Assembly: GCF_020510445.1 (NCBI RefSeq)
Contig: NZ_JAHBAG010000001.1
Coordinates: 4,750,501 to 4,814,500 of the forward strand
Source of the DNA: Hydrogenophaga taeniospiralis
Lineage (GTDB): Bacteria; Pseudomonadota; Gammaproteobacteria; Burkholderiales; Burkholderiaceae_C
Direction: 5' to 3'
Length of the DNA: 64,000 nt
A model generated the notes under the pieces. It did not search any database. It was not told the DNA's origin and saw only the letters and a list, made by a program, of their open reading frames with translations. Positions 9,245 through 29,316 of the stretch are shown one piece after another. A program made the position numbers and the translations under genes. Every line of letters begins with the position of its first letter. Within the stretch, counting starts at the first letter, position 1.

Positions 9245-9650
9245 GCCCTCCGCGCCAGAACACACCCATCCCACCCAGCTCGCGCATGCACAGACCGCAC
9301 AGCATCAAGCCCACCCACGGCGCGCCTTCGCGCCGCAAGCGGTTCGGCATGCGCCTGCACCACTGCGGCCCACCCACGGGTCGCTGAAGGACGCCGTCGC
9401 CCCTCCACGGCCCGCGGCCCGAACTCCCCCTGCCTCCTACGGTGCTGCGCTCGACGCAGCGCGACAACACCGGGTTGCTGTCCGCAGCGAACACGGGTGG
9501 ACGGCTCCTCGGCCCGGCAGTTGCCGGCAACCAAGGGTCCGACATCCTGCCGTTTGCCGGCCCCAACCCCTGGTACGCTGCCCGGGCATGTGGCGTATCT
9601 GAACCGTTCGGCCCCCTCTCCTTTCCTGTTCAACGACCAAAGGTCCCGTC
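9245..9650. other. 405-base non-coding gap between metG and Ehr-type cluster 1
   Basis: No frame here has family signatures; open frames on both strands look like GC-driven chance ORFs. A GC-rich self-complementary stretch (GGCGCGCCTTCGCGCC, about 9319-9335) could end metG transcripts but lacks a T run. The leader of the downstream cluster must start here, but no clear promoter is visible. Confidence 0.5.
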
Positions 9651-12583: not shown

Positions 12584-13188
12584 ACCTGCCGCTGATGCTG
12601 TGTCTGGTGGCGACCGTGGTTCCGGTCTTCTTTGGCAAAGTGGGCGCGGCCCCCCTGTGGCTGAGCCTGCAGGCCCTGGCGCTGGGCTGGATCACCCTGA
12701 CCCAGCACCACGAGCTGTCGGCCCACACGCTGGCCGTGGGCCTGGAGATCCTGCTGGTGCGCGCCTGGCTGGTACCGACCCTGCTGCGCCGCGCCTTGAC
12801 GGACCCGCGGGCCGCACAAAGCGACGTCATGCCATCCAACCTCTTCACCTGGGGCGTGGGCATCACCCTGGTCATCCTGGCGTTCAAGTTCGGCGACGGC
12901 GCGCGGGTCGATCTGCGCGCCATGACGCTGGGCACAGCGGCCGCCACCGCCATGATGGCCTTTCTGGTACTGGGCACCAACCGCGAACCGGCCGCGCAGC
13001 TGGTGGCCCTGCTGTTCATGGAAAACGCCATGGCGCTGTTCGAGTCGCTGATGGCCGAACCCTGGCCCCTGACGGTGCACCTGGCCGTCAGCGGCCTGTA
13101 TGTGCTCACGGTGGCGGTGGGCAGCTGGCTGGTGCGCGGCCAGGCCAGCACCACGGCGCCGCCCGCGACGGACAAGGAGATTGCATGA
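12580..13188 (+). CDS. Ehr-type cluster 1: HyfE-like (hydrogenase-4 component E) membrane subunit
   Basis: This 202-residue hydrophobic protein has about six TM helices. The central stretch ALLFMENAMALFESLM corresponds to the conserved helix of HyfE, a fusion-like relative of NuoK/MrpC (compare FLSMENGLIF in the paralogue at 25531). It overlaps the preceding gene in ATGA with GGAGG upstream, and overlaps the next frame at 13185. In complex-I-like machines this subunit sits between the H-like and antiporter-like subunits. Its own sequence is less conserved than its neighbours, so naming leans on position. Confidence 0.8.
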   Translation: MNLPLMLCLVATVVPVFFGKVGAAPLWLSLQALALGWITLTQHHELSAHTLAVGLEILLVRAWLVPTLLRRALTDPRAAQSDVMPSNLFTWGVGITLVILAFKFGDGARVDLRAMTLGTAAATAMMAFLVLGTNREPAAQLVALLFMENAMALFESLMAEPWPLTVHLAVSGLYVLTVAVGSWLVRGQASTTAPPATDKEIA

Positions 13189-13241
13189 ACACTGCACCAA
13201 GCCGTTCCCAAGCCAGCTCGCCAGGCGAAGGAACGCCGATG
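13185..13241 (+). repeat. Junction cassette copy 1 (subunit E/F junction, cluster 1)
   Basis: This stretch begins at the ATGA overlap and ends at the next in-frame ATG, which has an AAGGA Shine-Dalgarno sequence just before it. It shares the core CCGTTCCCAAGCCAGCTCG, and the later GAAGG-AC-CC pattern, with the copy at the start of mutY (41130-41198). It reads as an 18-residue tail (MNTAPSRSQASSPGEGTP) in frame with subunit F. Related copies lie at 25459-25527 and 41195-41263, always in the orientation of the genes. Confidence 0.6.
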
Positions 13242-14675
13242 ACTACCCCCACGCTGCCCCAGAGCCCCGACCACGCCGCCCCCGACGCGCGCGCCCGCAC
13301 ACGCTGGGTGGCCCCGGCCCTGGTGCTGGTGGCCGCGCTGATGTGGCTCGCCAGCGTGGGCGTGTTCATCGCCGTTCCGCTGGCCGAGCTGCCGCTGTAC
13401 CTGGTCGAGCGCCATTTCGTGCTCGACCCGACCTCGATGCTGTTCGTGCTGGTGATCAACACCGTGTTCCTGGGCATCGGCGTCTACCTGTACTCGCGCG
13501 AGCGCACCACCCCCGCCCTGCAGCGCGACATCCGCTCCCGTGCGGGGCTGATGCTGCTGTTCGTGGTGGTGGTCAACCTGGGGGTGTTGTCCAACCACCT
13601 GGTGCTGATGTGGACCCTGATCGAGGTCAGCACCCTGTGCGCGGCACCGCTGGTGGCCCGGGGCGATGCGCCGTCGCCCAAAGGCGTGGCGTGGCGCTAC
13701 CTGCTGTACTCGGCCATGACGCTGTCCATCACCTTCGTCGGCTTCATGTGCCTGGCGCAGTCGGCGCACCTGCGCGGCGTGGACATCAGCTTTGCCGTGG
13801 ACCAACTCAGCCTGTCGCTCACGCACCAGCCCGACGGCTGGCAGCGCCTCGGCCTGGCCCTGATGCTGTTTGGTCTGGGTGGCAAGCTCGGGCTGGCGCC
13901 TTTGTACAGCTGGCTGCCGGAAACCTACGAGGGCGCCCCCACCAGCACCAGCGCCCTGCTCGCGGCGGTGCAGTTCAACGTGAGCGTGGTGGCCGTGTTC
14001 CGGATCCTGCAGATCTTTCAGGGCTTCGAGTCCGGCTTCGTTTCGCAGGAGCTGCTGGTGATGGGTTATCTGTCGCTGATCGTGGCGGCCATCCAGGTCA
14101 TGGCTGCGCGCAACTACAAACGCCTGATCGCCTACGCCTGCGTGAGCTCCTCGGGCGTGATCGCGCTCGGGCTGTCGGTGGGCAAGGCGGCTGCCTACGG
14201 CGTGGTGCTGTACGTGGTCAGCAATGCGTTCGTGAAGTGCCTGCTGTTCCTGACCGCCGGGCGCCTGCGCTCGGTGTACGGCACCAACGACGTGGCCCCC
14301 CTGAGCGGCGTGATCCGTGTCATGCCGTTCTCCGGCGCGCTGTTCGGCGTGGGCATTTTCGTGCTGCTGGGCTTCCCGCCTTTCGCCAGCTTCCTGGCCG
14401 AGATGCTGATCCTCTCGGGCATCGTGCAGGCCGGCAACCTGATGGCGTTTTCCCTGATGTGCGTGATGTTGACCATCATCTTCGTGGCCACCGGCCGCGC
14501 CGTGTTTCCCATGCTGTGGGGTGCCTCCCACGGCGAGCGGCCGAGCGTTCAGGAGTCGTGGATCACCGCCTTGCCCAAGATCGGCTTCGTGACCGTGCTG
14601 ATCATGCTGGGCACCTACACCCCCGACGTGTTCACGGAGCTGCTCCAGGCGGTGGCTCAATCGATTGAAGGCTGA
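13185..14675 (+). CDS. Ehr-type cluster 1: HyfF-like antiporter-type proton-pumping subunit
   Basis: This protein of up to 496 residues belongs to the NuoN/HyfF antiporter family with about 14 TM helices. Channel residues include the glutamate in MWTLIEVSTL and the lysine in GLGGKLGLAPLYSWLPETYEGAP. Two starts are possible: 13185, in an ATGA overlap, or 13239, which has AAGGA 6 bases upstream. The intervening 18 codons belong to a repeated junction cassette, so 13239 may be the ancestral start. The paralogue is at 24008-25462. Confidence 0.88.
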   Translation: MNTAPSRSQASSPGEGTPMTTPTLPQSPDHAAPDARARTRWVAPALVLVAALMWLASVGVFIAVPLAELPLYLVERHFVLDPTSMLFVLVINTVFLGIGVYLYSRERTTPALQRDIRSRAGLMLLFVVVVNLGVLSNHLVLMWTLIEVSTLCAAPLVARGDAPSPKGVAWRYLLYSAMTLSITFVGFMCLAQSAHLRGVDISFAVDQLSLSLTHQPDGWQRLGLALMLFGLGGKLGLAPLYSWLPETYEGAPTSTSALLAAVQFNVSVVAVFRILQIFQGFESGFVSQELLVMGYLSLIVAAIQVMAARNYKRLIAYACVSSSGVIALGLSVGKAAAYGVVLYVVSNAFVKCLLFLTAGRLRSVYGTNDVAPLSGVIRVMPFSGALFGVGIFVLLGFPPFASFLAEMLILSGIVQAGNLMAFSLMCVMLTIIFVATGRAVFPMLWGASHGERPSVQESWITALPKIGFVTVLIMLGTYTPDVFTELLQAVAQSIEG

Positions 14676-14679
14676 GACC

Positions 14680-16191
14680 GTGTCCCTCACCATTCCCAAA
14701 CCCTCGCCCTGCGCGCTGTTCTCCGGCCAGGCGCTGCAGCCCCTGCCGCTGAACGATTTCGCTGCCCTCTGCCTGCAGCGCCTGCAACAAGGCGAGCGCC
14801 TGCTGAGCCTGTTCGGCCGTGCGGCGACCCCGGCCGATGCGGGCGACTGGGTGCTCACCGCCGTGTTCCTGCCCCCCGAAGGCGCGCTGTACGTGGTGCG
14901 CGGCCAGGCCCGCCGGGGCGAGCACTACCCCAGCCTGAGCGCCAGCCACCCGGCCGCGCAGATCCACGAGCGCGAGCTGTGGGAACAGACCGGCGTGGTG
15001 CCCGAGGGCCACCCCTGGCTCAAGCCGGTGCGCTTCGAGGGCGAACGCCAGCAGCACATGGCCGACTACCCCTTCTTCACCGTGCGCGGCAACGAGGTCC
15101 ATGAGGTGGGCGTCGGCCCCATCCACGCCAGCGTGATCGAACCCGGGCACTTTCGCTTCATGTGCCATGGCGAACGTGTGATCCACCTCGAAATCCAGCT
15201 CGGCTACCAGCACCGCGGCGCCCAGGCCCTGCTGCTGCGCCGCCCGGCCTGGAGCCTGACCCCCATCATCGAGTCGATCGCCGGCGACTCCGCGGTGGCC
15301 TACGCCTGGGCCCACTGCCAGGCCATGGAAGCCCTGTCGGGCCGGCCGGTGAGCGCCGACACCGCGCAGTCGCGCGCGGTCGGGCTCGAAATGGAACGCA
15401 TCGCCATGCACGTCGCTACACTCAACGGGCTGGCGACCGACATCGCCTACCTGCAGGCCGCGGCCACCTACGGCCGCCTGCGCACCGCCATCATCAACGC
15501 CAGCCAGCGCGTCTGCGGCAACCGCTTCGGGCGCGGCTGGCTGCGCCCCGGCTGGGCCCGCTCGCTGCCCACCGAACTGCGCGACGACCTGCGCAAGACC
15601 TTGCAAGGCTTCGCCCGCGACATCCACGAAGTCAATGGGCTGATGCGCAGCGCACGCAGCGTCAAAGCCCGCTTTGTCGGAACCGGCGTGCTCAGCCCGC
15701 AGGCAGCGCTGGACATGGGCCTCGCCGGCGTGGTGGCGCGCGCCAGCGGCGTGGCGCTGGACCTGCGCAAGCGGCTGCCGGGCGCCTACGAACACGCCCC
15801 CATCGCGACCGTGACCGCCCCCACGGGCGACTGCTGGGCGCGCATGGACCTGCGCATGCGGGAAATCGATGCGTCGGTGACCTGGCTGCTGGAGGCACTG
15901 GCCCGCGCTCCGGGCGAACAAGCCGCCGCGCGCGCGCCCGCAGCGCCCGAAGGGGAGAACGCCGCGCTGGCCGCCCGGACCCTGTGCGTGAGCCTGGTCG
16001 AAGGCACCCGCGGCCCGGTACTGCAGGCCATTGAAACCTCGGACTCCGGCGGTCTGCTGCACCACCAGGTGCAAGACCCGTCCCTGGCCAACTGGTTTGG
16101 CCTGGCGCTGGCCGTGCGCGACAACGGCATCTCGGACTTCCCCATCTGCAACAAGAGCTTTGACCTCTCGTACTGCGGCAACGATCTGTGA
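14680..16191 (+). CDS. Ehr-type cluster 1: NuoC-NuoD-like large subunit without Ni-Fe ligands
   Basis: This 503-residue peripheral subunit fuses an N-terminal NuoC-like domain (to about residue 120) to a NuoD/HyfG-like catalytic-type domain (VHEVGVGPIHASVIEPGHFRF onward). In true group 4 [NiFe] hydrogenases the L1 motif is RxCGxC and L2 is DPCxxC. Here the L1 position reads ESIAGDSAVAYAW and L2 reads FDLSYCGNDL, so the metal site cannot form. GTG at 14680 is preferred (GAAGG upstream, 4 bases after the previous stop); a TTG at 14665 is possible. It probably handles electrons to a quinone-like acceptor, but no substrate can be inferred. Confidence 0.88.
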   Translation: MSLTIPKPSPCALFSGQALQPLPLNDFAALCLQRLQQGERLLSLFGRAATPADAGDWVLTAVFLPPEGALYVVRGQARRGEHYPSLSASHPAAQIHERELWEQTGVVPEGHPWLKPVRFEGERQQHMADYPFFTVRGNEVHEVGVGPIHASVIEPGHFRFMCHGERVIHLEIQLGYQHRGAQALLLRRPAWSLTPIIESIAGDSAVAYAWAHCQAMEALSGRPVSADTAQSRAVGLEMERIAMHVATLNGLATDIAYLQAAATYGRLRTAIINASQRVCGNRFGRGWLRPGWARSLPTELRDDLRKTLQGFARDIHEVNGLMRSARSVKARFVGTGVLSPQAALDMGLAGVVARASGVALDLRKRLPGAYEHAPIATVTAPTGDCWARMDLRMREIDASVTWLLEALARAPGEQAAARAPAAPEGENAALAARTLCVSLVEGTRGPVLQAIETSDSGGLLHHQVQDPSLANWFGLALAVRDNGISDFPICNKSFDLSYCGNDL

Positions 16192-16949
16192 GCCCCACCA
16201 TGCTGAAAACCATCGCCGTGCGCCGCTCCCAGGGCACGCAGTACATCGCCGACCTGCGCGGCGCCGTGCCGGCCGGATTCCGCGGCAAACCCCTGATTGC
16301 CGACACCGCCTGCGCCGACAGCTGCCAGGCCTGCCTGAGCATCTGCCCCAGCCACGCCATCGAGCTCGCGCCCCTGCGCATCGACCTGGGCCGCTGCGTG
16401 CTGTGCGGCGACTGCGAACCCGCCTGCCCCAGCGGCAAGCTGAGCTTCAGCAACGACGTGAAACTCGCCAGCACCCGGCGCGAGGGCCTGGTGGTCACGG
16501 CGGCGCGCGCCCACATCGACCCGGTGCAGGTGTCGGCAGCGCTGCACCAGCGTTTCGGCCGCTCGCTCAAGCTGCGCTCGGTGTCCGCCGGCGGCTGCAA
16601 TGGCTGCGAGATGGAGCTCAATGCCACCGGCAACGTGAACTTTGACCTGGGCCGCTACGGCATCGACATCGTGGCCTCGCCGCGCCATGCCGACGGCCTC
16701 GTGCTCACAGGCCCCATCACCCGCAACATGGCGCAGGCGCTGGATATCTGCTGGGACGCGATCCCCGAGCCGAAACTGGTGATCGCCATGGGTGCCTGCG
16801 CGATCTCGGGCGGCGTGTTCGCCGACAGCGACGCACTGGACCGCAGCTTCCTGGAAAAAGTGACCCCCTCGCTCTACCTGCCAGGCTGCCCGACGCATCC
16901 ACTGACCTTTATCTCTGGCATTCTGGATTTGCTGGGGATTGCGGGATAG
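16188..16949 (+). CDS. Ehr-type cluster 1: ferredoxin + NuoB-like small subunit fusion
   Basis: This 253-residue protein joins two modules usually encoded separately (NuoI/HyfH and NuoB/HyfI). Residues about 38-86 hold eight cysteines for two [4Fe-4S] clusters (CADSCQACLSICP and CVLCGDCEPACP). From about residue 130 the small-subunit fold carries GGCNGCEMELNA, GACAISGG and PGCPTHP, the four ligands of the proximal cluster. GTG at 16188 overlaps the large-subunit stop (GTGA); ATG at 16200 is an alternative. The fused chain gives a three-cluster electron wire to the large subunit. The cluster 2 homologue lacks the ferredoxin part. Confidence 0.88.
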   Translation: MSPTMLKTIAVRRSQGTQYIADLRGAVPAGFRGKPLIADTACADSCQACLSICPSHAIELAPLRIDLGRCVLCGDCEPACPSGKLSFSNDVKLASTRREGLVVTAARAHIDPVQVSAALHQRFGRSLKLRSVSAGGCNGCEMELNATGNVNFDLGRYGIDIVASPRHADGLVLTGPITRNMAQALDICWDAIPEPKLVIAMGACAISGGVFADSDALDRSFLEKVTPSLYLPGCPTHPLTFISGILDLLGIAG

Positions 16950-17342: not shown

Positions 17343-17819
17343 TTAGAGCTCTATCTGAGATTGAGCGAACGAGTCGGCCCACTCGCCAGCATTCTCAATA
17401 CTGCGGAAGACCTTCTGCAGCGGCATTTCGATCATCGGATTGTTTCCTGCCGGCAGCAGACGTCGCGGATCAGTTTGGAGTCCGAAGCACAGCTTCGAAT
17501 GGGCATAGGCGTACCCAAGCTCGAAGGCTGCCCCCTCGTCGATCGCACGTCCATCTAGCACGATGATCAGAGCGCAGGCGGCCTCGAGTGCTCGCAAATC
17601 GCGGTCAAAAATCGATTTGTAGGCTGCATGTTGCTCCACCCCGCACGCGAGCAGATCAACGAGCTTGCCGCCATCCCTTTGGGGCAAGTAGACATCCAAG
17701 CTTGCCTCAATGCGTTTCGTCAATGCGCGATTGAAGTCGAGTTCGGCTTCTGAAAAGAGGGGGGCCGCTAGGTACACGAGCGGCCGATTGTGATCAAACC
17801 GGTCCACTGCTTGCTCCAA
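17343..17819 (-). CDS. Nucleoside 2-deoxyribosyltransferase-like protein (DRT/DRHyd fold)
   Basis: This 158-residue protein matches the nucleoside 2-deoxyribosyltransferase family: VYLAAPLFSEAE at the start, IFDRDLRALEAACALIIVLDG in the middle, and AIDEGAAFELGYAYA with the catalytic glutamate. Family members cut or exchange the base of deoxynucleosides or nucleotides, and relatives recur in bacterial conflict systems. It is the last gene of the island operon and overlaps the SIR2/P-loop gene by 26 bases, so the products probably act together. Substrate is unknown; a deazaguanine-type or NAD-derived nucleotide would fit the neighbours but is inference. Confidence 0.8.
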   Translation of the reverse strand: MEQAVDRFDHNRPLVYLAAPLFSEAELDFNRALTKRIEASLDVYLPQRDGGKLVDLLACGVEQHAAYKSIFDRDLRALEAACALIIVLDGRAIDEGAAFELGYAYAHSKLCFGLQTDPRRLLPAGNNPMIEMPLQKVFRSIENAGEWADSFAQSQIEL

Positions 17820-19455
17820 TGTAACTCTTCAGTTTCGCCGTCAAATCCGCTGGCACATATTTCTGACGGTGGATGACTTCGGCGACTCGCTTCGTTAGCT
17901 CCGCTATCCCCATGAATTGGGTATCGATCGTAATCGTACCAGGCATGGATCCATACAGCGCCATCATGTCGGTTTGCATTTTATCCAACTTCTTCGCCGT
18001 ATATTTTTGTCTGCCCGTGGCGCGCACTCGGGCAGACAGCTCTTTAGGGTCACCCAACAATAAGATGACGACCCCCTTTTCGACGCCATAGTCGCCGTGC
18101 CCATCATCAGGACAGAGGTGTTCCGCCAGAAACTTCGCCTTGGCGGACCTCTTATTTTTAGGCGTAAAAACCAGTGGATCAAGCGGTGGACGGTCAACGA
18201 CACTGATCATGGCATTTCCTCCGTGCCTAAGCGTATAGTTTTTTTCCGCAAATTGATCCGCGATCCATTCGTCTACGAACTCTCTTTCGTCGTCTGTCAA
18301 TTTGTCCCAGGGGATACTTAACACCTCGGGTCGAGGTACAAGCCACTCATCCAAGACGTTCAAATTCCGGAGATGGCTAGTGGTCGTACTCTTACCAACC
18401 CCTATGGAGCCAGTCATATAAAAAGTGTACTTCAGCGGAATGGCGCTGCGTTTTGCAAAATCCTCAAGCTTGCCGTCTGGAATCGCGCTTTCGTTAATTA
18501 ACTTCAGCAGCAACCTAATTTCTTCAGATGTAAGAAAAAGGGTTATCAAGTTGTAGACTCTGAAATTCGTCTCCGAAATTAGCCTCTGTTCGACTTCGGA
18601 AAGTGCGCCCTTATCCTTAACCCAGTGGCAATAGTAGTGGAAGTTGCCTGGATTTGTCTCGGCGCCACGCATTAAAACATTTCTAAGCTCAGCTTCTAGC
18701 GAGCAGCCGACTAGCAAACAGGTGTTTCTGGCAAAGTGGGCCAGAAGAAAAGACGAGTCATGGCCGCGCGCGCCGACATATTGCTTTGAATATGCAGCCT
18801 CTGAAAAAACGAATCTATCAACCGCCTTCTCCATAAGACCTGCCGGAACATATCCGTGCAGATGATAAATCACACAATCTTCCCGACGAAATTGGGGCCA
18901 TGGATCAGTGACCACCTCGAAGCCGCGGTTACCTCTGTCTTTTTCGCGCTTCCTTGCGGCGAGCGCCTGCTCAAGATAGTTATCGAAGTTGAAATTGACT
19001 GTCAGTGCGCTGTTTTGAATAAGTGGAATTAGCGCATCCATATACGGATGTTTCAGCAGCTCATCAGCTATATCGATCGGCGGGGATTTGTATAAATATT
19101 TTTGACAAATTGTGAGCCATGCTGCCGTCATAGAGCTCTGCAGCTCCGCAGGAGATAAACAAGAGAATCTAGTCGAATATTTTGCTCGAAACTTTTGATA
19201 GAGCATCTCGGTTTGGTAGGGAGCGGCCATGGCTTTGAATGCGGCTCCGTCTGCTACATTCTTTGCACTCACGTCCGGATCAGAAGCAATGTTATTGATT
19301 AACTTATCCCATAACGGAGCACCAAAATCATAGCTGATACCTGCTCCAAGTATCGTGCCGAAGCGCCGCTTGCGGACCTGAGAGCGTAAATGCACGATGG
19401 CACGAGAGTATCGTCTCAGCAGATCGCAAAAAGCCCTATCTTTATCCTTGGTCAT
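17794..19455 (-). CDS. SIR2-like domain fused to a P-loop (deoxynucleoside) kinase-like domain
   Basis: This 553-residue protein has an N-terminal SIR2-like domain: GAGIS near residue 37, TVNFNFDNYLE with the conserved Asn/Asp, VIYHLHG with the catalytic-type histidine, and LLVGCSLEAELRNVL. In defence proteins such domains are NADases. From about residue 345 a P-loop (MTGSIGVGKST) begins a kinase-like domain with VVDRPPLDPLVF and RVRATGRQKY, resembling deoxynucleoside and thymidylate kinases. The ATG has AGGGGA upstream. Codons are visibly more A/T-rich than the Ehr-type genes. It follows the DUF6884 gene by 8 bases. Both active sites look intact by motif, but the pairing is unfamiliar to me. 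Confidence 0.8.
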   Translation of the reverse strand: MTKDKDRAFCDLLRRYSRAIVHLRSQVRKRRFGTILGAGISYDFGAPLWDKLINNIASDPDVSAKNVADGAAFKAMAAPYQTEMLYQKFRAKYSTRFSCLSPAELQSSMTAAWLTICQKYLYKSPPIDIADELLKHPYMDALIPLIQNSALTVNFNFDNYLEQALAARKREKDRGNRGFEVVTDPWPQFRREDCVIYHLHGYVPAGLMEKAVDRFVFSEAAYSKQYVGARGHDSSFLLAHFARNTCLLVGCSLEAELRNVLMRGAETNPGNFHYYCHWVKDKGALSEVEQRLISETNFRVYNLITLFLTSEEIRLLLKLINESAIPDGKLEDFAKRSAIPLKYTFYMTGSIGVGKSTTTSHLRNLNVLDEWLVPRPEVLSIPWDKLTDDEREFVDEWIADQFAEKNYTLRHGGNAMISVVDRPPLDPLVFTPKNKRSAKAKFLAEHLCPDDGHGDYGVEKGVVILLLGDPKELSARVRATGRQKYTAKKLDKMQTDMMALYGSMPGTITIDTQFMGIAELTKRVAEVIHRQKYVPADLTAKLKSYIGASSGPV

Positions 19456-19463
19456 GCTTTCCC

Positions 19464-20702
19464 CTAAAGCAACTCAATTTGACCGCTGGCGTTTTCGCGG
19501 TCCTTGATACGCAGGCGCCATCCGCTCGGGGCCAATGACTGCTCTGTTCTCGTTCGTCGCCCCTCAGCGCCTTCAATGTGTTGTTCGAATATATCTAGGG
19601 ACGTTGCATCAAATGTCTCGTAGACGTGATTGACGTTCCAAAGCCCTGAGCTTGTAACAGCTTCGCGGGTGCTCCAACGACCGAGCCAATTCCCACTTGG
19701 CAGATCCAGCGGCCCTGTTGGGCCTGCCAGGAGGGCGATGAAGTTCCTCTCCAGGTAGCTGCGATCACTATCTGCCGACGATGCGTCAGGCACCTCCAGC
19801 CACGCTGCTTGCATGTTCCCAATGTGCTCGGAGACTGCGAGTTCAATCTCTTCCTCTGCTGAGCGAATCTCGGTAGATGCAGACTGCCCCTTGCCCCACG
19901 TCGGAAAAATTGGCTCGAGCTCTGCACGCCGTATGAGGGATTCGCCAACGTGAAGACGAAAGATCGATCCACGGTGATTGCCGAGTCCGTCGCCTCCCCC
20001 ACGGTGCGTGCGGAGCCGGTTCCAAAGGGTGGCCTTTGAGCCCTCACTGACCGCATGGGTGCCGATTCGAACAACTCGGTGCTGGAATGGTGCAGTCATG
20101 CGCATCTCGCCGTCTTCAAAGAAGAAGTAGATGCCGCGCTTGTGTCTAACAGACGCGGCAGTCTGCTGAGAAAGCTTTCGGCTCAAACCAGTGTTCAAGG
20201 CGGCAACACGTGCCAGAAGCGCGTAGAAGCGATCGATGTGCGATAAGCGTGCGTGTTCTCTTTCGACCTTCTGCAGCCAAGCTACCTGACTACCAATCCC
20301 CAGCGCTGACATCGGCGCTGCAGTTTCACGCCCTTCTGACTCAAGTGCAGGGGCAAGATATGAACGATACGCAGATCCGGCTAGAAAGATGACGCGACCG
20401 CCGGCGGGCACGCACGCATTGAAGGCGCTATGGACACCTGCGGCCCACGCCTGTCGTTGCGCCTCGCTTTGATTCAGGAGCGACTCGTTGTATGGGGCGA
20501 TTACGTCTTTGGGTGACAGCAGCCCGTGCTTTGCGGAAAGGATGAACCATTGATCGGCGCGCCGTTCGGCGTAGCTGCGCGCAGCCGAGAAGAGCGGCGA
20601 TCGATAGATAAATTCGGCTGTTGCCGGCTGGTCGCCCTTTCTGCTGGTACAGGCGACTAGACAAACCGTATTCACGCGGGCTTTCTCCACGGACTCCGTC
20701 AC
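19464..20702 (-). CDS. DUF6884 domain + GIY-YIG-like nuclease domain protein
   Basis: This protein of about 412 residues opens with a DUF6884-type domain (VCLVACTSRKGDQPA, then YRSPLFSAARSYAE and WFILSAKHGLLSP), which recalls YaaA-like and deazapurine-linked families. Around residue 205 a GIY-YIG-like core follows: RGIYFFFEDGE, then VVRIGTHAVSEGS, LWNRLRTHRG and GNHRGSIFR. The far C-terminus is not recognised. The GTG at 20702 forms a GTGA overlap with the queC stop; GTG codons at 20690 and 20675 are alternatives. Lying between queC and the SIR2 gene, it could be the nucleic-acid-targeting part of the system (inference). Confidence 0.65.
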   Translation of the reverse strand: MTESVEKARVNTVCLVACTSRKGDQPATAEFIYRSPLFSAARSYAERRADQWFILSAKHGLLSPKDVIAPYNESLLNQSEAQRQAWAAGVHSAFNACVPAGGRVIFLAGSAYRSYLAPALESEGRETAAPMSALGIGSQVAWLQKVEREHARLSHIDRFYALLARVAALNTGLSRKLSQQTAASVRHKRGIYFFFEDGEMRMTAPFQHRVVRIGTHAVSEGSKATLWNRLRTHRGGGDGLGNHRGSIFRLHVGESLIRRAELEPIFPTWGKGQSASTEIRSAEEEIELAVSEHIGNMQAAWLEVPDASSADSDRSYLERNFIALLAGPTGPLDLPSGNWLGRWSTREAVTSSGLWNVNHVYETFDATSLDIFEQHIEGAEGRRTRTEQSLAPSGWRLRIKDRENASGQIELL

Positions 20703-21337
20703 TTCAGGCCCTGCCACGCGAACTCGTGGAGCTTGCACGCGTCGCACGCGCCGCACGGAACGAACCCAGCCTCCGCAATCTTTGGCCTGTAGCAGCTCCA
20801 AGTGTCATGGCGCTGCAAACCCAGACGCTGGGCGAGCTTGGCAATCTGAGGTTTCGACTTCTTTTGCAGCGGCGCGAAGAGCTTTGGCCCCTTGGGAATA
20901 GCGTACGAGAGCATGTCTCTGAAACTTGCGATGAACTCGGGGCGGCAGTCGGGATAGCCGGAGAAATCAACCGAGTTGATTCCCGTCCACACCTCGTCGG
21001 CGCCAATTCCAGCAGCTTCGGCCGAAGCCAACATGAGGAAAATCCCGTTGCGGCCAGGAAGGAAGGCACTCGAAACGCCCCTTTTGATTTCGGCCACCGA
21101 GCGATCTTTCGGTATCTCGCGTGCGGGCTTGCTCCAAGCAACCGACACAATCTTCCGCTCTACACCGAAGCGAGCGCACTGTGCCGCTGCGTAGTCCAGT
21201 TCGACGTGGTGATGCTGGTTGTAGCTGACGCCGAGGCTAACGACTTCGTGACCGCGCGACTGTGCAAGTAGCAAACAGACGGTGGAGTCCAGCCCTCCGC
21301 TATGCAGCACGACAACCTTTCGCTTTTCCTTTTTCAT
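20699..21337 (-). CDS. QueC-family 7-cyano-7-deazaguanine (preQ0) synthase homologue
   Basis: This 212-residue protein has the PP-loop SGGLDST near residue 13 and a C-terminal zinc site (SCYRP...CGACDAC), both typical of QueC, which turns carboxydeazaguanine into preQ0 using ATP and ammonia. Its ATG has GGAG 6 bases upstream. It is the first gene of an operon with no other queuosine genes, so its role is probably not tRNA queuosine. QueC homologues are known in 7-deazaguanine DNA modification, in type IV CBASS and in Qat defence systems. The divergent, island-type base composition supports transfer. Confidence 0.85.
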   Translation of the reverse strand: MKKEKRKVVVLHSGGLDSTVCLLLAQSRGHEVVSLGVSYNQHHHVELDYAAAQCARFGVERKIVSVAWSKPAREIPKDRSVAEIKRGVSSAFLPGRNGIFLMLASAEAAGIGADEVWTGINSVDFSGYPDCRPEFIASFRDMLSYAIPKGPKLFAPLQKKSKPQIAKLAQRLGLQRHDTWSCYRPKIAEAGFVPCGACDACKLHEFAWQGLK

Positions 21338-21910
21338 TTCGCGCTCCGTTTCTGCCGATTTCCACAGTGCTACTTTCTCGCCCCAAAGGCTCGCAGTGCA
21401 CGCTACAAGCCCAGCTCCAGGCTGGCCTGGCCCGCTGCTATCGTACAGCGCCCAGCGACCAAAGCGTCACCTAGCAGTACCGCTGCCGAACTGGTCGCGG
21501 CTGGTGGCTTTTTGAGTACAGCTGGCGCAAGGGTGTTGCGACCACCAACGTCAGGTTTCTGAGTCAGCAGCCTTTCGGCCGTCATGCATGGCTGACCGCT
21601 CCCAGCCTATTGTGTTGAAAAACTCCCCTGAGTAAGTGTTCATCACATTTTCGGGGGTGCTTTACCCCTTGCCTTAAGTGAGATCGTTGATCCTGGGCCC
21701 TTCTATGGGGTCGATTTTCCAGTTACGACGACCCCGAGGGCGGCGCTCGAGTTTTTCAACACAATAAGCCAGCAAGAGTCATCCGCAGCGTCAAATCCGA
21801 TGACTGCTACCTCCCCAAATTCGTTGCTGGAACAACCCACTGAATGAATATCTGTTGCTTTGCTCGGATCCAGATTGCGCATGCCAGCAGGGGATGGGTT
21901 GGCGCGACAA
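21338..21910. other. Non-coding right part of the island, with a transposon remnant
   Basis: About 570 bases lie between queC and the end of Ehr-type cluster 2. The first 270 should hold the promoter of the queC operon; no clean -35/-10 pair is visible. The middle is the 159-bp inverted-repeat element (21608-21766). Open frames here are short and without family motifs. A frame on the minus strand crossing the right repeat (reading LIVLKNS) is a typical by-product of such ends. Confidence 0.5.
21608..21766. mobile_element. 159-bp insertion-sequence remnant or MITE with perfect 18-bp terminal inverted repeats
   Basis: The ends are TATTGTGTTGAAAAACTC (21608-21625) and its exact reverse complement (21749-21766). 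They are flanked directly by the 4-base repeat AGCC (21604-21607 and 21767-21770), as expected for a target-site duplication. The interior codes for nothing, so this is either a MITE or an internally deleted insertion sequence that a full-length relative elsewhere could move. The family was not identified. Confidence 0.75.
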
Positions 21911-22429
21911 CTATGCCACCCGCCGCCGCACGGCTGTGAGGATGCCGCGCAGGATGTCCACCGGCGGCGGTGGACAACCGGGCACCACCACATCCACCGG
22001 GATCACGTTGGCCACCCGTCCGCAGCTGGCGTAGCTTTCGCCGAAGATGCCGCCGTCGCAGGCGCAGTCCCCCACCGCCACCACCAGCTTGGGCTCGGGC
22101 GTGGCGTCGTAGGTGCGCCGCAGCGCGGTTTCCATGTTGCGCGACACCGGGCCGGTGACCAGCAGCAGGTCGGCATGGCGCGGGCTGGCGACGAAGCGGA
22201 TGCCCAGCCCCTCCAGGTTGTAGTAGGGGTTGGTCAAGGCGTTGATCTCCAGCTCGCAGCCGTTGCACGAGCCGGCATCCACCTCCCGGATCGCCAACGC
22301 CTGCCCCAAGATGCCCAACAGCTCGGCCTGGATCCGGGACGCCTCGGCCTGCGCCGCCTCGCCAATGTCGGGCGCGGGCTCGCTGCGGATGCCCGTCTTC
22401 ACGATCTGCCACGCGACTTTCCAGATCAT
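21911..22429 (-). CDS. Ehr-type cluster 2: NuoB/HyfI-like small subunit
   Basis: This 172-residue protein carries the proximal [4Fe-4S] cluster ligands of the NuoB family: AGSCNGCELEINA, GDCACDGG and PGCPPPP. The ATG at 22429 overlaps the large-subunit stop in ATGA; the longer frame to 22675 only shadows that gene. Unlike its cluster 1 counterpart it has no ferredoxin module, and no separate ferredoxin gene lies in cluster 2. Electrons must come from an outside carrier or a partner encoded elsewhere. Confidence 0.9.
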   Translation of the reverse strand: MIWKVAWQIVKTGIRSEPAPDIGEAAQAEASRIQAELLGILGQALAIREVDAGSCNGCELEINALTNPYYNLEGLGIRFVASPRHADLLLVTGPVSRNMETALRRTYDATPEPKLVVAVGDCACDGGIFGESYASCGRVANVIPVDVVVPGCPPPPVDILRGILTAVRRRVA

Positions 22430-24003
22430 AGGTCGTGCCCCGAATAGCTGAGGTTGAACGACTTGTTGATCAGGGGGAAGTCGGCCACGATGTCGCCCAT
22501 GATGGCGTGCTCCAGCACCGGCCAGTTCTGCCACGACGGGTCGTGCAAGTGGCAGCGCGCGATGCGCGCACCCGCCCCGCCCCCCACGAGCTCCAGCGCC
22601 ACGAACACCTCGCCGCGCCAGCCCTCCACCCAGCCCGCGCCCCGGCAGGGCAGATCGGGCAGCGCCAGCTCGCAACGCACCGGCCCTTGCGGGAGTCCGC
22701 GCAACAGGTCGCGCACCAGGCGGATGGACTCGAACACCTCGTCAAAGCGCAGCGCCACGCGCGCGGCCACATCGCCCCCCCGGTGGGTCGCCATCGCCAC
22801 CTCCAGCTGGTCGTAGGGCGCCCATGGGTGGTCGCAGCGCAGGTCCCGGGCCTGGCCGCTGGCGCGGCCGGCCAGCCCGGTCAAGCCCAACTGGGCGGCC
22901 AGCGCTGGCGGCACCGAACCGCAGTTCATCAGCCGGTCCTGCAGCCCCGCATGCGACTCAAAAATCGCGAACAAGCGGCGCACGTCGTTCTCCAGCAGCT
23001 CGCAGGTCTGCAGCATCCGGTCGATCTGCTCGTCTGCCACGTCGCCCTGGACGCCGCCGGGCTGGACGCAGTCCATCATCAGCCGGTGGCCAAACGCCGC
23101 GTGGGAGTCGCGCAGCCAGTCTTCGCGCAGGCGCGAGAACTGGGCCAGTGCGAACGCGAACGCGGCATCGTTGCCCAGCGCGCCGAGGTCGCCCAGGTGG
23201 TTGGCGATGCGCTCCCTCTCCAGCAGCAGCGCGCGCAGCCAGGCGGCACGCGGGGGCACCACAGTCCGCGTGGCCGACTCCAGCGCCATGCAGTACGCCC
23301 ACGCAAAGGCCACGGTGCTGTCGCCCGACACCCGGCCCGCCAGCCGGTGCGCCTGCAGCGGCGCGAGCTGGGTCATGCGCTGCTCCACGCCCTTGTGGGT
23401 GTAGCCCAGGCGTTGCTCCAGCCGCAGCACTTTTTCGCCCACCACGGAAAACCGGAAATGGCCGGGCTCGATGATGCCGGCGTGCACCGGACCCACCGCG
23501 ATCTCGTGCACGCCGTCGCCGGCCACCTGCACGAACGGGTAGTCGGTCAAGGGCCCCGGTGCGGGTTCGGGCAAGGCCAGCGGGTTCTGCAACAGGGGCG
23601 GGTGCTCCCTGGCCCAGGCGCCATGGTTCAGCCACGCGCGCTGGTCCTGCGCGCCTTCGGCGTGCACGCCCGAGAGATCGGCGGCCGCGCGCTGCATCCG
23701 GCCCGCGGCCGGGAACACCGTGGCGAGGTCCGGGTACGGCGTGAAGCCGTTCCCCGCCACCAAGGGCAGGGTGAGCCAGAAAAGGCCTTCGGGCGTGGCG
23801 TAGGCGGCGCACACCGCTTCGGCGCGCAGCGGCCCTTCTGCCACCGGCACCGCCTGGCCCGCCCAGAGCGCCAGCAACCGCCCGCCGGCCTCGCGCACCG
23901 CTGCGGCGGCGGCCAGCCATTGCATGTCGGTGACCTGCCCGTGCGCCATCGGCACCGGGGCCGGCAGCGGCATGAACGCCAGGTCGAGGCCGGGTATCTT
24001 CAT
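22426..24003 (-). CDS. Ehr-type cluster 2: NuoC-NuoD-like large subunit without Ni-Fe ligands
   Basis: This 525-residue protein has an N-terminal NuoC-like domain (to about residue 150) and a NuoD/HyfG-like domain (VHEIAVGPVHAGIIEPGHFRF, then RLGYTHKGVEQRM). The L1 position reads GRVSGDSTVAFAWAYC instead of RxCGxC, and the C-terminus reads FNLSYSGHDL instead of DPCxxC. No [NiFe] site is possible. Both motifs are lost more completely than in cluster 1, where one cysteine remains near L2. Four bases separate the start from the preceding gene's stop. The conserved GDST and NKSF stretches suggest a retained, non-hydrogenase function. Confidence 0.9.
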   Translation of the reverse strand: MKIPGLDLAFMPLPAPVPMAHGQVTDMQWLAAAAAVREAGGRLLALWAGQAVPVAEGPLRAEAVCAAYATPEGLFWLTLPLVAGNGFTPYPDLATVFPAAGRMQRAAADLSGVHAEGAQDQRAWLNHGAWAREHPPLLQNPLALPEPAPGPLTDYPFVQVAGDGVHEIAVGPVHAGIIEPGHFRFSVVGEKVLRLEQRLGYTHKGVEQRMTQLAPLQAHRLAGRVSGDSTVAFAWAYCMALESATRTVVPPRAAWLRALLLERERIANHLGDLGALGNDAAFAFALAQFSRLREDWLRDSHAAFGHRLMMDCVQPGGVQGDVADEQIDRMLQTCELLENDVRRLFAIFESHAGLQDRLMNCGSVPPALAAQLGLTGLAGRASGQARDLRCDHPWAPYDQLEVAMATHRGGDVAARVALRFDEVFESIRLVRDLLRGLPQGPVRCELALPDLPCRGAGWVEGWRGEVFVALELVGGGAGARIARCHLHDPSWQNWPVLEHAIMGDIVADFPLINKSFNLSYSGHDL

Positions 24004-24007
24004 CGGT

Positions 24008-25462
24008 TCAGCCTCCCAGCAAACGCGCCGCCTGCACGTACCAGTCGTTCAGGTAGGGCGGGATGTACAGGCCCAGCACCAGGCCCAACGTCAGGTGCAG
24101 AAACACGGGGATCAGGGCCGGCGGGTGCGCCAGGGCCTTGAGCGTCGTGTCGCCAAACACCATGGGCAAAACGCGGACCAGCATGGAAGCGAACGCGACC
24201 CCGAGCGCCAGGAACAGGAACGGCGTGGCCCATGGCTGGTCGCGCATGGCGGTGGTCAGGATCAGGAACTCGCTGGCGAACACGCCAAAGGGGGGCATGC
24301 CCAGAATCGCCATCACGCCCAGGATCAGGCCCCAGCCCACCGTGGGGTTGACCTTGATGAGGCCGCGGATCTCGCTCATGACCTGGGTGCCCGCCTTCTG
24401 CGTGGCGTGGCCCACGGTGAAGAAGATGGCGGACTTGACCAGCGAATGCACCGTCATGTGCAGCAGGCCGGCAAAGTTGGCCACCGGCCCGCCCATGCCG
24501 AAGGCGAAGGTGATCAGGCCCATGTGTTCGATGGACGAGTAGGAAAACATGCGCTTCACGTCTTTCTGGCGCGACAGGAAGAACGCGGCCACCACCACCG
24601 AGACCAGGCCGAAGCCCATCATGAGTTGCCCGGCCATGTTGGAGTCCAGTGCGCCGTCGGTCAGCACCTTGAAGCGCAGCACGGCGTACATCGCCACGTT
24701 GAGCAGCAGCCCCGAGAGCACCGCGGACACCGGCGTGGGGCCTTCGGCGTGGGCGTCGGGCAGCCAGCTGTGCAGCGGCACCAGACCGATCTTGGTGCCG
24801 TACCCCACCAGCAGGAAGACGAAGGCCAGCGTCATGATGGCCGGGTCGAGCTGGTGCTTGATGCCGTTGAGATCGCTCCACAGCAGCGAGGCGTGGTCCA
24901 GCCCCATCGCCTTGTCGGCCGCCATGTAGACCAGGATGGTGCCGAACAGGGCCTGCGCAATCCCCACGCCACACAGGATGAAGTACTTCCAGGCCGCTTC
25001 CAGGCTGGCCGAGGTGCGGTACACGCTGACCAGCAGCACGGTGGTGAGCGTGGCGGCTTCCATGGCCACCCAGATGATGCCCAGGTTGTTGGTGGTGAAA
25101 CCCAGCAGCATGGTGAAGCTGAACAACTGGTACATGCTGTGGTAGAGCTGCATGCGCCGTGGCGTCATCTTGCCGTGGTCCTGCTCGATGCGCATGTAGG
25201 GCCTGGAAAAGATGGCCGTGGTCATCCCCACGAACGCCGTGAGCGTGACCAGGAAAACGTTCAGCGGGTCGATGAAGAACTGCCGGTCCCAGACATACTG
25301 CGGCCCGTCGTTGATGACCTGTGCCGTCAGAAAACACGCCGCCACGAAGGTCCCCAGGCTGAAGACCACGTTCACGTCGCGCGCACGCGACCAGTGCCCG
25401 ATGAAGGCCAGCGCCAGGCCCCCCATCAGCGGCAAACCCAACACCAAGTAGAGGGCGCTCAT
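24008..25462 (-). CDS. Ehr-type cluster 2: HyfF-like antiporter-type proton-pumping subunit
   Basis: This 484-residue multi-TM protein of the NuoN/M-HyfF family has key residues in WVAMEAATLTTVL and GYGTKIGLVPLHSWLPDAHAEGP, plus the FSYSSIEHMGLI stretch typical of the family. Its ATG overlaps the stop of a 22-residue upstream frame (AAATGAGC), whose end supplies the GGAGG ribosome-binding site. The homologous gene in cluster 1 has a related cassette at the same junction. Confidence 0.92.
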   Translation of the reverse strand: MSALYLVLGLPLMGGLALAFIGHWSRARDVNVVFSLGTFVAACFLTAQVINDGPQYVWDRQFFIDPLNVFLVTLTAFVGMTTAIFSRPYMRIEQDHGKMTPRRMQLYHSMYQLFSFTMLLGFTTNNLGIIWVAMEAATLTTVLLVSVYRTSASLEAAWKYFILCGVGIAQALFGTILVYMAADKAMGLDHASLLWSDLNGIKHQLDPAIMTLAFVFLLVGYGTKIGLVPLHSWLPDAHAEGPTPVSAVLSGLLLNVAMYAVLRFKVLTDGALDSNMAGQLMMGFGLVSVVVAAFFLSRQKDVKRMFSYSSIEHMGLITFAFGMGGPVANFAGLLHMTVHSLVKSAIFFTVGHATQKAGTQVMSEIRGLIKVNPTVGWGLILGVMAILGMPPFGVFASEFLILTTAMRDQPWATPFLFLALGVAFASMLVRVLPMVFGDTTLKALAHPPALIPVFLHLTLGLVLGLYIPPYLNDWYVQAARLLGG

Positions 25463-25527
25463 TTGGCAACCTCCGTGCTGCGCACTGCGGTGCGAGCTGG
25501 CTTGGAGCGGTCCGGCGCTGCACTCAT
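25459..25527 (-). repeat. Junction cassette copy 2 with 22-codon coupled frame (subunit E/F junction, cluster 2)
   Basis: A 69-base cassette fills the gap between subunits E and F of cluster 2. It holds a complete short frame (MSAAPDRSKPARTAVRSTEV and two more residues) whose TGA overlaps the subunit F start. It shares CGCAGTGCGCAGCACGGAGG with the copy at 41195-41263, and AAGCCAGCTCG with copy 1. The GGAGG at its end is the ribosome-binding site for subunit F. Whether the peptide matters or only its translation does cannot be told. Confidence 0.6.
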
Positions 25528-25530
25528 GGC

Positions 25531-26190
25531 TCAGTCTTCCTTGAGTGACTCAAGGTTGTGGATGTCCAGGCTGTCGAACTTTTCCCGGATCTGGAACATG
25601 AACACGCCCAGGATCAACACCCCCACCAGCACGTCCAGCGCAATGCCGAACTCCACGATCATCGGCATGCCGTTGGTCACGGTCGTGGCCGCGAAAATCA
25701 GTCCGTTCTCCATCGACAGGAATCCGATCACCTGGGGAATGGCCTTGGAGCGGATGATCATCATCATGAACGACAGCAGCACGCAGGCCAGCGCGATGCC
25801 CAGCGCATCGCTCGCGATGGAGTTCGACAGGCGCGACACCGGCAGCGCCAGGCTGAAGGAGAAGATCACCAGCGCGATGCCCACGAGCATGGTCGTCGGG
25901 ATGTTCAGCAGCGTCTCTACGTCCCAGCGCACATTGAGGCGCCGGATCAGCCGGTGCAACATCCAGGGAATGAACAGCACCTTCAGCACGAAGGTGATCG
26001 CGCCAGACACGTACAGGTCCGGCTGCCGCGTGACATAGCCCAGCAGGAACGACGCCGCCACCAGCGCGGCGCCCTGGATCATGAACAGATGGATCAGCGA
26101 CCCGACACGCCGCTGGGAGATCATGGCGAACGAGAGCAGCAGGATCAGGGTGGCAAACAGATTGATCAGTTGCGGCGCGAATTGGATCAT
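25531..26190 (-). CDS. Ehr-type cluster 2: HyfE-like membrane subunit
   Basis: This 219-residue hydrophobic protein has about six TM helices and the conserved IGFLSMENGLIFAATTV stretch of hydrogenase-4 component E. The acidic C-terminal tail (REKFDSLDIHNLESLKED) resembles that of HyfE. The ATG at 26190 overlaps the stop of the upstream NuoH-like gene in ATGA. The longer frame back to 27051 runs antiphase through that gene and was rejected. Confidence 0.9.
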   Translation of the reverse strand: MIQFAPQLINLFATLILLLSFAMISQRRVGSLIHLFMIQGAALVAASFLLGYVTRQPDLYVSGAITFVLKVLFIPWMLHRLIRRLNVRWDVETLLNIPTTMLVGIALVIFSFSLALPVSRLSNSIASDALGIALACVLLSFMMMIIRSKAIPQVIGFLSMENGLIFAATTVTNGMPMIVEFGIALDVLVGVLILGVFMFQIREKFDSLDIHNLESLKED

Positions 26191-29158: not shown

Positions 29159-29310
29159 GGACCTTTCGCGCGTGTTGCGGACGCCCAAATGGTACGCCCG
29201 AAGCGGACGGGCTCCCGTCGGCAAGCCGCTGGCTGGCCCAGGCCTGATGCCGAAAGGACACAGACCGGCGCCGCCGCGCAGCCCCGGATCGGGCCGGCAG
29301 GCCCGCCCGG

Positions 29311-29316
29311 TAAAAT
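29311..29316 (+). promoter_or_regulatory. Possible -10 element for DUF3460-scpA
   Basis: TAAAAT lies 40 bases upstream of the DUF3460 start, inside the divergent space with cluster 2. It matches the hexamer upstream of metG. No -35 was recognised. Confidence 0.3.

Follow-up and report, generated by a model that had tools for sequence, protein, structure and literature searches.

Related Defense Systems

Thoeris, Kongming, type IV CBASS and Qat are the described defense systems nearest to the locus considered here. Thoeris consists of ThsA, a SIR2-SLOG protein, and ThsB, a TIR protein, and Kongming (KomABC) is described as combining a deoxynucleotide signal with a SIR2 NADase (PMC12948488). 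According to PMC13174449 and PMC11204291, nucleoside 2'-deoxyribosyltransferase (NDT) and TIR domains are related both in sequence and at the active site. Type IV CBASS (Cap9) and Qat (QatC) include QueC-family proteins, and deazaguanylation of proteins by members of this family is described for two defense systems (PMC11996544, PMC13329287). PDC-M57 is an uncharacterized candidate in PADLOC.

The window, a 64,000-nucleotide stretch of Hydrogenophaga taeniospiralis DNA, contains an operon encoding QueC, a DUF6884 and GIY-YIG-like fusion (DUF6884-GIY), a SIR2-kinase fusion and an NDT-family protein. With somewhat less than even confidence, this operon is taken here for a horizontally acquired candidate anti-phage system of the abortive-infection type, in which a deoxynucleotide-gated SIR2 would be combined with a preQ0-dependent nucleic-acid module. 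PADLOC-DB 2023 has no named system for the four-gene set and none was found elsewhere, in line with the sequence-only reading of this DNA; however, one member of the set, DUF6884-GIY, is already catalogued as the PADLOC candidate PDC-M57A/B. Literature on DUF6884, PDC-M57 and deoxyribosyltransferase with SIR2 gave no useful lead.

Organization of the Locus

An ORF check of the window confirmed four minus-strand ORFs at 17343..21337 and recovered the gene arrangement proposed earlier, namely a GTGA overlap between QueC and DUF6884-GIY, an 8-base gap between DUF6884-GIY and SIR2-kinase, and a 26-base overlap between SIR2-kinase and NDT (junctions of -4, +8 and -26 bases). The three junction values are identical at locus L005 (Burkholderia sp. 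Ax-1724). GC content is 0.54 in the island versus 0.677 (7000-16949) and 0.667 (22000-32000) in the flanks, as the first reading had also noticed. A promoter scan found none. An Rfam scan of the island gave one match, far under its gathering score, and that of seven loci gave tRNAs only, with the preQ1 riboswitch absent. When the left flank was used to look for an empty site, 17 same-genus genomes gave only short matches, and DNA searches gave two short matches in plasmids and none in E. coli.

The Four Gene Products

The SIR2-kinase gene (17794..19455, minus strand; 553 aa; SIR2_2 4.7e-12) encodes a SIR2 domain fused to a P-loop nucleoside/nucleotide-kinase-like domain. The SIR2 domain (18526..19398, minus strand) is ThsA-like: its N156 and H200 align with N112 and H152 of ThsA (6lhx), which is the best solved relative found with the wide profile A3 (E 1.5e-12). 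With profile A1, which is nearest to the window protein, FAM118B comes first (8.6e-5) and ThsA reaches just 0.014; KomC is also among the solved SIR2 relatives found. In the residue table of 41 rows, from which proteins shorter than 450 aa (L010, L044, L046 and L047) are excluded, the position of ThsA H152 is Asn in 35 rows, and the window protein is one of the six others. A killing role for SIR2, as proposed from the sequence, is plausible for the window protein, but because of this Asn it is uncertain whether the wider family has NADase activity. The kinase-like domain (17851..18438, minus strand) has the Walker A sequence TGSIGVGKST, the DRPPLDP motif and the lid arginine R476; all 41 rows retain GK[ST] of Walker A together with the DR pair and R476. 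Family members match AAA_28 (30/30), DTMP_kinase (12/30) and Thymidylate_kin (5/30), while the matches of the window protein itself are weak (AAA_28 0.002, DTMP_kinase 0.057). The fused P-loop domain is predicted to be dTMP-kinase-like.

The NDT gene (17343..17819, minus strand; 158 aa; PF05014 1.7e-18) begins with TTG, and its start position is uncertain. The nearest solved relative is 7O62 (DpNDT; E 3.4e-36). The active-site residues in the window protein are Y16/Q47/D74/D94/E100; across 39 rows, both Asp and the Glu are invariant, while Tyr is kept in 38 and Gln in 37. Glu98 of LdNDT is described as catalytic (PMC9570332), and a pair of Tyr and Glu is linked to 2'-deoxy specificity in PMC11204291. 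Judged by these residues, NDT has the active site of a 2'-deoxynucleoside/deoxynucleotide enzyme.

The gene for DUF6884-GIY (19464..20702, minus strand; 412 aa; PF21818 2e-42) starts at a GTG overlapping the queC stop codon; a longer TTG ORF is also present, and this 445-aa form was used for the PADLOC scan, which gave PDC-M57A (1.3e-34), PDC-M57B (5e-72) and a weak match to DpdC (1e-4). The DUF6884 domain (20268..20666, minus strand) bears CxxxK and LSAKHG motifs and is a distant relative of YaaA (PMC11701544). The GIY-YIG-like domain (19713..20165, minus strand) has the motifs GIY, RIG, RLRTH and YLERN, which bears out this part of the earlier proposal at motif level, but profile comparisons lent it no support: Pfam GIY-YIG did not match the protein at E<=1, and hhalign against 24 GIY-YIG domains of relatives gave non-significant probabilities of 1-3% with shallow query alignments. 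The GIY-YIG identity is a motif-level prediction. DUF6884 alone is common beyond the operon: the DUF6884-GIY protein matches 80 records from plasmids and 22 from phages, with only one of these matches, in a plasmid, covering >80% of its length.

The first gene (20699..21337, minus strand; 212 aa; PF06508 7e-53, TIGR00364 above cut-off) encodes a dedicated QueC of the preQ0 (7-cyano-7-deazaguanine) synthase type. The whole canonical signature (SGGxDS, YxQxHxxE, PxRN, YPDC, Cys4 and the essential Tyr of the Zn region) is present in the window protein, in which C(x)12 replaces C(x)8 ahead of CxxCxxC. Mutants define the residues essential for preQ0 synthesis (PMC13329287), and operon QueCs keep those tested: Y39, R96, Y128, Y183, YPDC and the four Cys are found in 17/17, as are the remaining checked residues except the H of YxQxHxxE (11/17). 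In a tree of 17 operon and 17 other QueCs, from which L096 (failed motif filter) and fragments or matches without a locus record (L112-L120 and others) were left out, the operon QueCs form a single clade (support 100/98) separate from housekeeping QueC and spanning Pseudomonadota, Thermodesulfobacteriota, Bacteroidota and Planctomycetota. The L111 row sits on a long branch. The window QueC scores 116 bits against canonical QueC and 39 bits against Cap9. QueC is of the canonical preQ0-synthase type, in agreement with the deazaguanine-forming role first suggested for it, and protein conjugation in the style of Cap9 or QatC looks unlikely. For QueC, PTPS/QueD and TGT, the window indeed holds no other queuosine genes; elsewhere, the host genome carries another QueC and one each of PTPS and TGT.

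Recurrence and Gene Content

The complete QueC/DUF6884-GIY/SIR2-kinase/NDT operon, in the same order, was found in 15 of the 43 SIR2-kinase loci of species genomes, across four phyla, and also on one viral contig (L048). The four genes thus co-occur elsewhere as a unit, and a chance neighborhood was rejected on this count. The distribution is patchy: the 369 genomes of the class yielded the window's own locus and one weak match. No SIR2-kinase was found in the phage records searched.

SIR2-kinase and NDT occur together in 37 of the 43 loci, 22 of which have no operon QueC (14 without and 8 with GIY). Operon QueC always adjoins DUF6884-GIY (16/16 QueC-bearing loci, counting viral L048), and GIY occurs without operon QueC in 11/43 loci, including L017. 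In 11 minimal loci whose upstream sequence extends for 2 kb or more, QueC and GIY are both missing; the "minimal" label of L010, L019 and L028 is unsure, as their sequences end within 430 bases upstream. By gene content, the core is SIR2-kinase plus NDT, with DUF6884-GIY as an add-on and QueC as the most dispensable part, and, given the 11 minimal loci, preQ0 cannot be essential to the core. L017 was rejected as QueC-bearing because 1009 bases separate its QueC from GIY and this QueC has the YxDC form of Cap9; it is counted here as lacking QueC but is still labeled QueC-bearing in one tree. Read by eye, a TGT-like frame follows the L017 QueC.

Other partners are also seen. In two Clostridia with no QueC seen in their genomes, a gene of the preQ0-transporter family PF02592 lies between NDT and GIY; since both have TGT, the role of this transporter may lie in tRNA queuosine salvage. 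The L033 locus includes GIY, yet its genome yielded no match to QueC or PF02592. L076 has a KAP NTPase as an alternative partner, and L073 has two adjacent genes resembling the PDC-M57A/PDC-M57B pair. At L009 and L011, Qng1 and TGT-type salvage genes adjoin the operon.

The surroundings are rich in defense genes: neighbors matched 101 and 127 PADLOC families in two scans versus 3 in the control, these counts being of overlapping models, not proteins, and the control (80/82 ORFs from 12 stretches) being all of the window's phylum, unlike the neighbors. Neighbor ORFs were chosen with a mechanical caller (at most five per locus, 230-750 aa), and 158 of the 161 selected were scanned, the other three being LepA of L043 and the pair of PF02592 genes. 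Overall, the first proposal is partly supported: the unit recurs in defense-rich surroundings, but its core is SIR2-kinase plus NDT, DUF6884-GIY is already catalogued as PDC-M57, and kinase and NDT, whose roles had been left open, call for an explanation.

Possible Modes of Action

In the favored model, NDT would, upon infection, make or alter a deoxynucleotide by base cleavage or base exchange on a deoxynucleoside or dNMP. The kinase-like domain would bind or phosphorylate this deoxynucleotide, and this would switch on SIR2, resulting in NAD+ depletion. DUF6884-GIY would be an optional front module that recognizes or cuts nucleic acid. QueC would supply it with preQ0, which DUF6884 (YaaA/DpdC-like) may use as a ligand or substrate. 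In favor of this model are the recurrence of the operon and of its core pair, the confinement of operon QueC to loci with DUF6884-GIY, the single QueC clade with its conserved residues, the PF02592 gene of the Clostridia, the ThsA-like SIR2, the Tyr and Glu of NDT, the dTMP-kinase-like domain, the defense-rich neighbors and the KAP NTPase of L076. Weighing against it are the Asn of most SIR2 rows and the low rank of ThsA with profile A1, the motif-level GIY-YIG identity, the weak kinase matches of the window protein, the minimal loci, the TGT of the Clostridia, the gene content of L033 and the wide occurrence of DUF6884 alone.

A doubtful alternative is that NDT attaches preQ0 to deoxyribose and the kinase domain phosphorylates the 2'-deoxy-preQ0, the product of which activates SIR2, with DUF6884-GIY releasing deoxyribose donors or removing the product. 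One operon does hold QueC, kinase and an NDT with an intact active site, and QueC-like Cluster 4 adjoins PfkB-kinase/NDT proteins in ~89% of neighborhoods (PMC13329287), but the 22 loci with SIR2-kinase and NDT and no operon QueC, and the fact that QueC tracks DUF6884-GIY rather than NDT, argue against such a signal. Immunity would then use a second messenger of a new kind: starting from preQ0 and from deoxynucleosides released by the phage, QueC, NDT and the kinase domain would build a 7-deazaguanine deoxynucleotide, to be read by the kinase-fused SIR2; this wider claim is likewise doubtful. If true, preQ0 supply, by QueC or from an imported precursor, would be a licensing step of immunity.

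Modification and restriction of the Dpd type, in which preQ0 marks host DNA, DUF6884-GIY cuts according to mark status and SIR2 serves as back-up, could account for QueC together with a weakly DpdC-like and a nuclease-like domain. It is nevertheless improbable, as the operon has neither DpdA nor TGT nor any gene known to insert a base into DNA, the host genome has one TGT match only, and the TGT near L009 is of the tRNA type (DpdA match just 8e-7). Conjugation of deazaguanine to a partner N-terminus by QueC, following the type IV CBASS/Qat precedent noted above, seems less probable still, given the canonical signature and bit scores of the operon QueC and the lack of a conserved Gly2 at the N-termini of SIR2 (30 rows) or GIY (22 rows). 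Least probable is a non-defense cluster for nucleoside salvage or deazapurine-nucleoside biosynthesis: the operon does hold three enzymes of base/nucleoside chemistry (NDT, kinase and QueC), and salvage genes lie alongside at L009 and L011, but the ThsA-like SIR2, defense-rich neighbors, patchy spread and low GC point away from it.

Because the gene content is nested (core; core and GIY; core, GIY and QueC or transporter), how far each part depends on the others can be tested directly. If the favored deoxynucleotide-gated model is correct, preQ0 would have a role in immunity beyond DNA marking and protein conjugation.

Comparison with Known Systems

The operon QueC shares its tested essential residues with canonical QueC (PF06508 Cluster 1), but forms its own clade in an operon without queD/queE, in a host carrying a second QueC. 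Unlike Cap9 and QatC, it has YPDC and RN motifs and a Zn site of the canonical kind. The CD-NTase, Cap9 and Cap10 set of type IV CBASS was not found among the operon proteins, nor was the QatA/QatB/QatC/QatD set of Qat (QatC model just 0.048; no TatD or KAP ATPase in the operon). Both halves of the window DUF6884-GIY match PDC-M57, but here they form a single protein, encoded ahead of SIR2-kinase and NDT; the QueC, SIR2 and NDT proteins have no PDC-M57 match. The catalogued but unexplained PDC-M57 would gain a partner set and a candidate cofactor.

The proposed logic follows Thoeris, with its signal maker of TIR fold and SIR2 effector, and Kongming, with dITP and SIR2. The window protein shares with Thoeris a SIR2 domain with aligned catalytic Asn and His, but the operon has a kinase-like domain in place of SLOG and NDT (Tyr and Glu) in place of TIR. 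The four proteins gave no match to TIR or SLOG, and an NAD-derived cyclic signal as in Thoeris is not expected. KomA deaminase and HAM1-type KomB likewise have no match in the four proteins; compared with Kongming, the kinase is fused to SIR2 and NDT is new. If the favored model holds, the operon would add a deoxynucleotide-handling SIR2 system next to Thoeris and Kongming.

Structure of the operon

The minus-strand operon at 17343..21337 encodes proteins that Pfam assigns to QueC (PF06508), DUF6884 (PF21818, second protein), SIR2 (SIR2_2, PF13289) and nucleoside 2'-deoxyribosyltransferase (NDT, PF05014). An ORF check of the window places the four genes and their overlaps where the sequence-only reading had put them, and the low GC content of the island also holds (0.54, against 0.677 and 0.667 in the 10-kb stretches on either side). 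The GIY-YIG label of the second protein stands in part: the motifs GIY...RIG...RLRTH...YLERN are present, but no confirmation came from Pfam or from hhalign comparison with 24 GIY-YIG domains of relatives. When the four proteins were scanned, PADLOC yielded no named system for the set; it terms the two halves of the DUF6884-GIY protein PDC-M57A and PDC-M57B, PDC-M57 being an uncharacterised candidate.

A MITE-like 36-base inverted repeat (78% complementary; window 21590-21784) lies ~250 bases upstream of queC, with a partial copy (71% over ~114 bases) elsewhere in the host genome at C1:2385224. On either side of the island lies a hydrogenase/NuoB-like gene cluster (identified by eye); the two clusters converge, and their facing end genes (window 16188-16949 and 21911-22675) are related (68% over 248 bases).

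Recurrence and genomic neighbourhood

A SIR2-kinase profile built from 30 sequences, run against a single genome of each species, gave 43 loci; ORFs were called mechanically in these and searched with profiles to score gene content. The co-occurrence elsewhere that the earlier reading had proposed to look for is found: all four genes are present in 15 of the 43 loci, with identical gene order and strand. Of the others, 8 have GIY, SIR2 and NDT, 2 have GIY and SIR2, 14 have SIR2 and NDT, and 3 have SIR2 alone (L016; L032, where the locus reaches the end of its contig; and L047, a weak fragment). Overall, NDT is present in 37/43 loci and GIY in 26/43. L017 was scored as QueC, GIY and SIR2; its QueC is a separate gene resembling Cap9, the QueC-family protein of type IV CBASS. 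Beyond SIR2-kinase, DUF6884 and GIY, this Lokiarchaeal locus (4317-6000) continues with a protein that seems to span the membrane twice, then the Cap9-like QueC and a frame resembling TGT; it may be a type IV CBASS-like or deazaguanylation locus of archaea.

The full set is also carried by a viral contig (L048), and SIR2-kinase plus NDT by two plasmid records, in one of which a KAP NTPase gene precedes and overlaps the SIR2 gene. On the Rhizobium plasmid L076 (6363-10001), the KAP NTPase overlapping the SIR2-kinase gene is 1212 aa long and is possibly another front module for the SIR2-kinase–NDT core. At L035 (6074-10016), two genes directly upstream of the SIR2-kinase gene form a possible alternative partner module: one encodes an Eco57I-type methylase, the other a 605-aa protein that has no Pfam match and overlaps the SIR2-kinase start.

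In the protein database, the SIR2-kinase was found to have 145 relatives and a Pseudomonas SIR2-kinase of the minimal type (lacking QueC and GIY) 287, with ~8000 candidates scored in each search and the best 120 of each listed; Pseudomonas aeruginosa proteins are among the relatives listed. The system is rare and patchy: among 369 class genomes, the SIR2-kinase gave the window's own match and one weak match, and DUF6884-GIY matched at 1e-20 in 4/398 phylum genomes, the window's own included. DUF6884 extends more widely than the system, as the window's DUF6884-GIY protein is matched by 80 plasmid and 22 phage records, of which one plasmid alone matches over at least 80% of that protein. On the viral contig L050 (9181-11240), a DUF6884 gene lies between two proteins without Pfam matches.

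The 158 neighbouring ORFs, in two batches (80 and 78), gave hits at E<=1e-10 to 101 and 127 families in PADLOC, against 3 for 80 control ORFs from 12 stretches; because PADLOC models overlap and the control was unmatched by phylum, these figures represent enrichment of matches, not the number of systems. The names listed include capP, RmrA, type III restriction and methylase, SoFic, PglX, HamA/HamB and GajB.

SIR2, kinase-like and NDT domains

Against solved structures, the wide SIR2-kinase profile (32 rows) matched Thoeris ThsA (1.5e-12), Kongming KomC (2.7e-7) and FAM118B (4.6e-5), and the profile nearest the window protein matched FAM118B first (8.6e-5), then KomC (0.003) and ThsA (0.014). 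N156 and H200 of the window protein align with ThsA N112 and H152, the latter of which we take to be catalytic. Asn156 is kept in 41/41 aligned rows, and the His position is His in 6/41 (window, L005-L008 and L048; one tree clade) and Asn in 35/41, with an invariant His two residues N-terminal to it. In the proteins of L009-L043 and L045, the motif at the position of the ThsA catalytic His is HxNG rather than HxHG, which marks them as a branch of SIR2 proteins altered at that catalytic position. This substitution may matter, since KomC(H146N) is named as a variant in a PDB entry. The proposal that SIR2 is the killing arm therefore fits the window protein, for which NADase activity is predicted with moderate confidence, but is not extended to the wider family.

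In 41/41 rows, the C-terminal domain retains a Walker A GK[ST], the DR pair within a DRxPLDP-like motif, and the lid Arg R476; its profile kin at E<=0.1 are AAA_28 (30/30), thymidylate kinase (5/30; by TIGR00041, 12/30) and dNK (2/30). As AAA_28 includes NadR-type kinases, a nicotinamide-riboside kinase is a possible alternative identity. The closest solved relative of NDT is 7O62, the Desulfotalea psychrophila NDT (PMC9570332, in part). Glu100, Asp74 and Asp94 are invariant in 39 NDT rows and Tyr16 is kept in 38/39; as the Tyr-Glu pair accompanies 2'-deoxy specificity (PMC11204291, in part), the substrates are likely to be deoxynucleosides or dNMPs, not NAD+.

Supply of preQ0

The 17 operon QueC rows, from four phyla, group in a single clade (100/98), separate from a further 17 QueC homologues drawn from the genomes of SIR2-kinase loci and the host. 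Alanine mutants of E. coli QueC Y35, R99, Y131 and Y189 abolish preQ0 synthesis (PMC13329287, in part), and the equivalent residues are kept in 17/17 operon QueCs. The host, in which another queC had been suggested as a check, has a second QueC, and the upstream PTPS enzyme and TGT occur once each in its genome.

In a QueC survey of the genomes of 26 loci, 12 of the 15 with the full operon encode another strong QueC (212-268 bits), L037 has two QueC fragments, and L009 and L015 show the operon copy alone. Among genomes with GIY-bearing, QueC-less operons, L025, L031, L040 and L045 have a strong QueC (227-250 bits), L043 homologues at 184 and 95 bits, and L046 a partial homologue (124 bits); the QueC search gave background only in L020 and PP-loop background (<= 32 bits) in the Clostridia L029, L033 and L044. 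In L029 and L044, a gene of PF02592, the COG1738/YhhQ preQ0/preQ1 transporter family (PMC5372724, in part), sits between NDT and GIY and, judged by position, is the sole PF02592 match in the genome; no PF02592 match was found in the L033 genome. As these Clostridia genomes also encode TGT, salvage of queuosine for tRNA may be another role of the transporter.

Qng1 (DUF2419) and TGT lie directly downstream of the operon in L009 (6016-8390) and L011 (6999-9630). The L011 Qng1 matches solved queuosine salvage proteins at 8e-86 and the L009 copy falls in the same cluster; the L009 TGT is of the tRNA type, and both TGTs match DpdA of deazaguanine DNA modification weakly. In L011 a further Qng1, which is truncated, precedes the operon, so the operon is as likely to have been inserted at a salvage locus as to be functionally linked to these genes.

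Proposed mechanism and relation to known systems

Operon QueC was seen only alongside DUF6884-GIY (15 species loci, L048 and the window), GIY occurs without operon QueC in 11/26 GIY loci (L017 included), and 11 minimal loci whose upstream sequence extends for 2 kb or more lack both. On a tree of the 43 SIR2-kinase rows, GIY presence and QueC presence each take 5 changes; L017 was scored there as having QueC, and L028, which is truncated by the end of its contig, as minimal. We read this nesting and these changes as indicating that QueC serves the module of the GIY protein and that the core works without both. A bolder idea, that the deoxynucleotide signal has preQ0 as its base, finds a parallel in PF06508 Cluster 4, which adjoins PfkB/NDT proteins (PMC13329287, in part), but is weakened by the same nesting.

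Around the observed gene content, conservation, nesting and dedicated QueC, the best-supported model is one of abortive infection by SIR2, in which the deoxynucleotide chemistry of NDT and the kinase-like domain would act as the gate and DUF6884-GIY would be a preQ0-dependent front module. A phage would provide the trigger, and a signal would lead to NAD+ loss. The weak similarity of DUF6884-GIY to DpdC (1e-4, PADLOC scan) and the relation of DUF6884 to YaaA per Pfam (PMC11701544, in part) suggest that preQ0 might be the DUF6884 ligand.

Searches of open-licence papers, a scope outside which most subscription papers fall, listed none recognisable as a description of the QueC/DUF6884-GIY/SIR2-kinase/NDT set, and the portions consulted of a 2026 QueC-family survey and the qatABCD paper do not mention it; newer defence catalogues could include it. 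Nucleotide-gated SIR2 immunity is known, and a dedicated deazaguanine supply is new to us.
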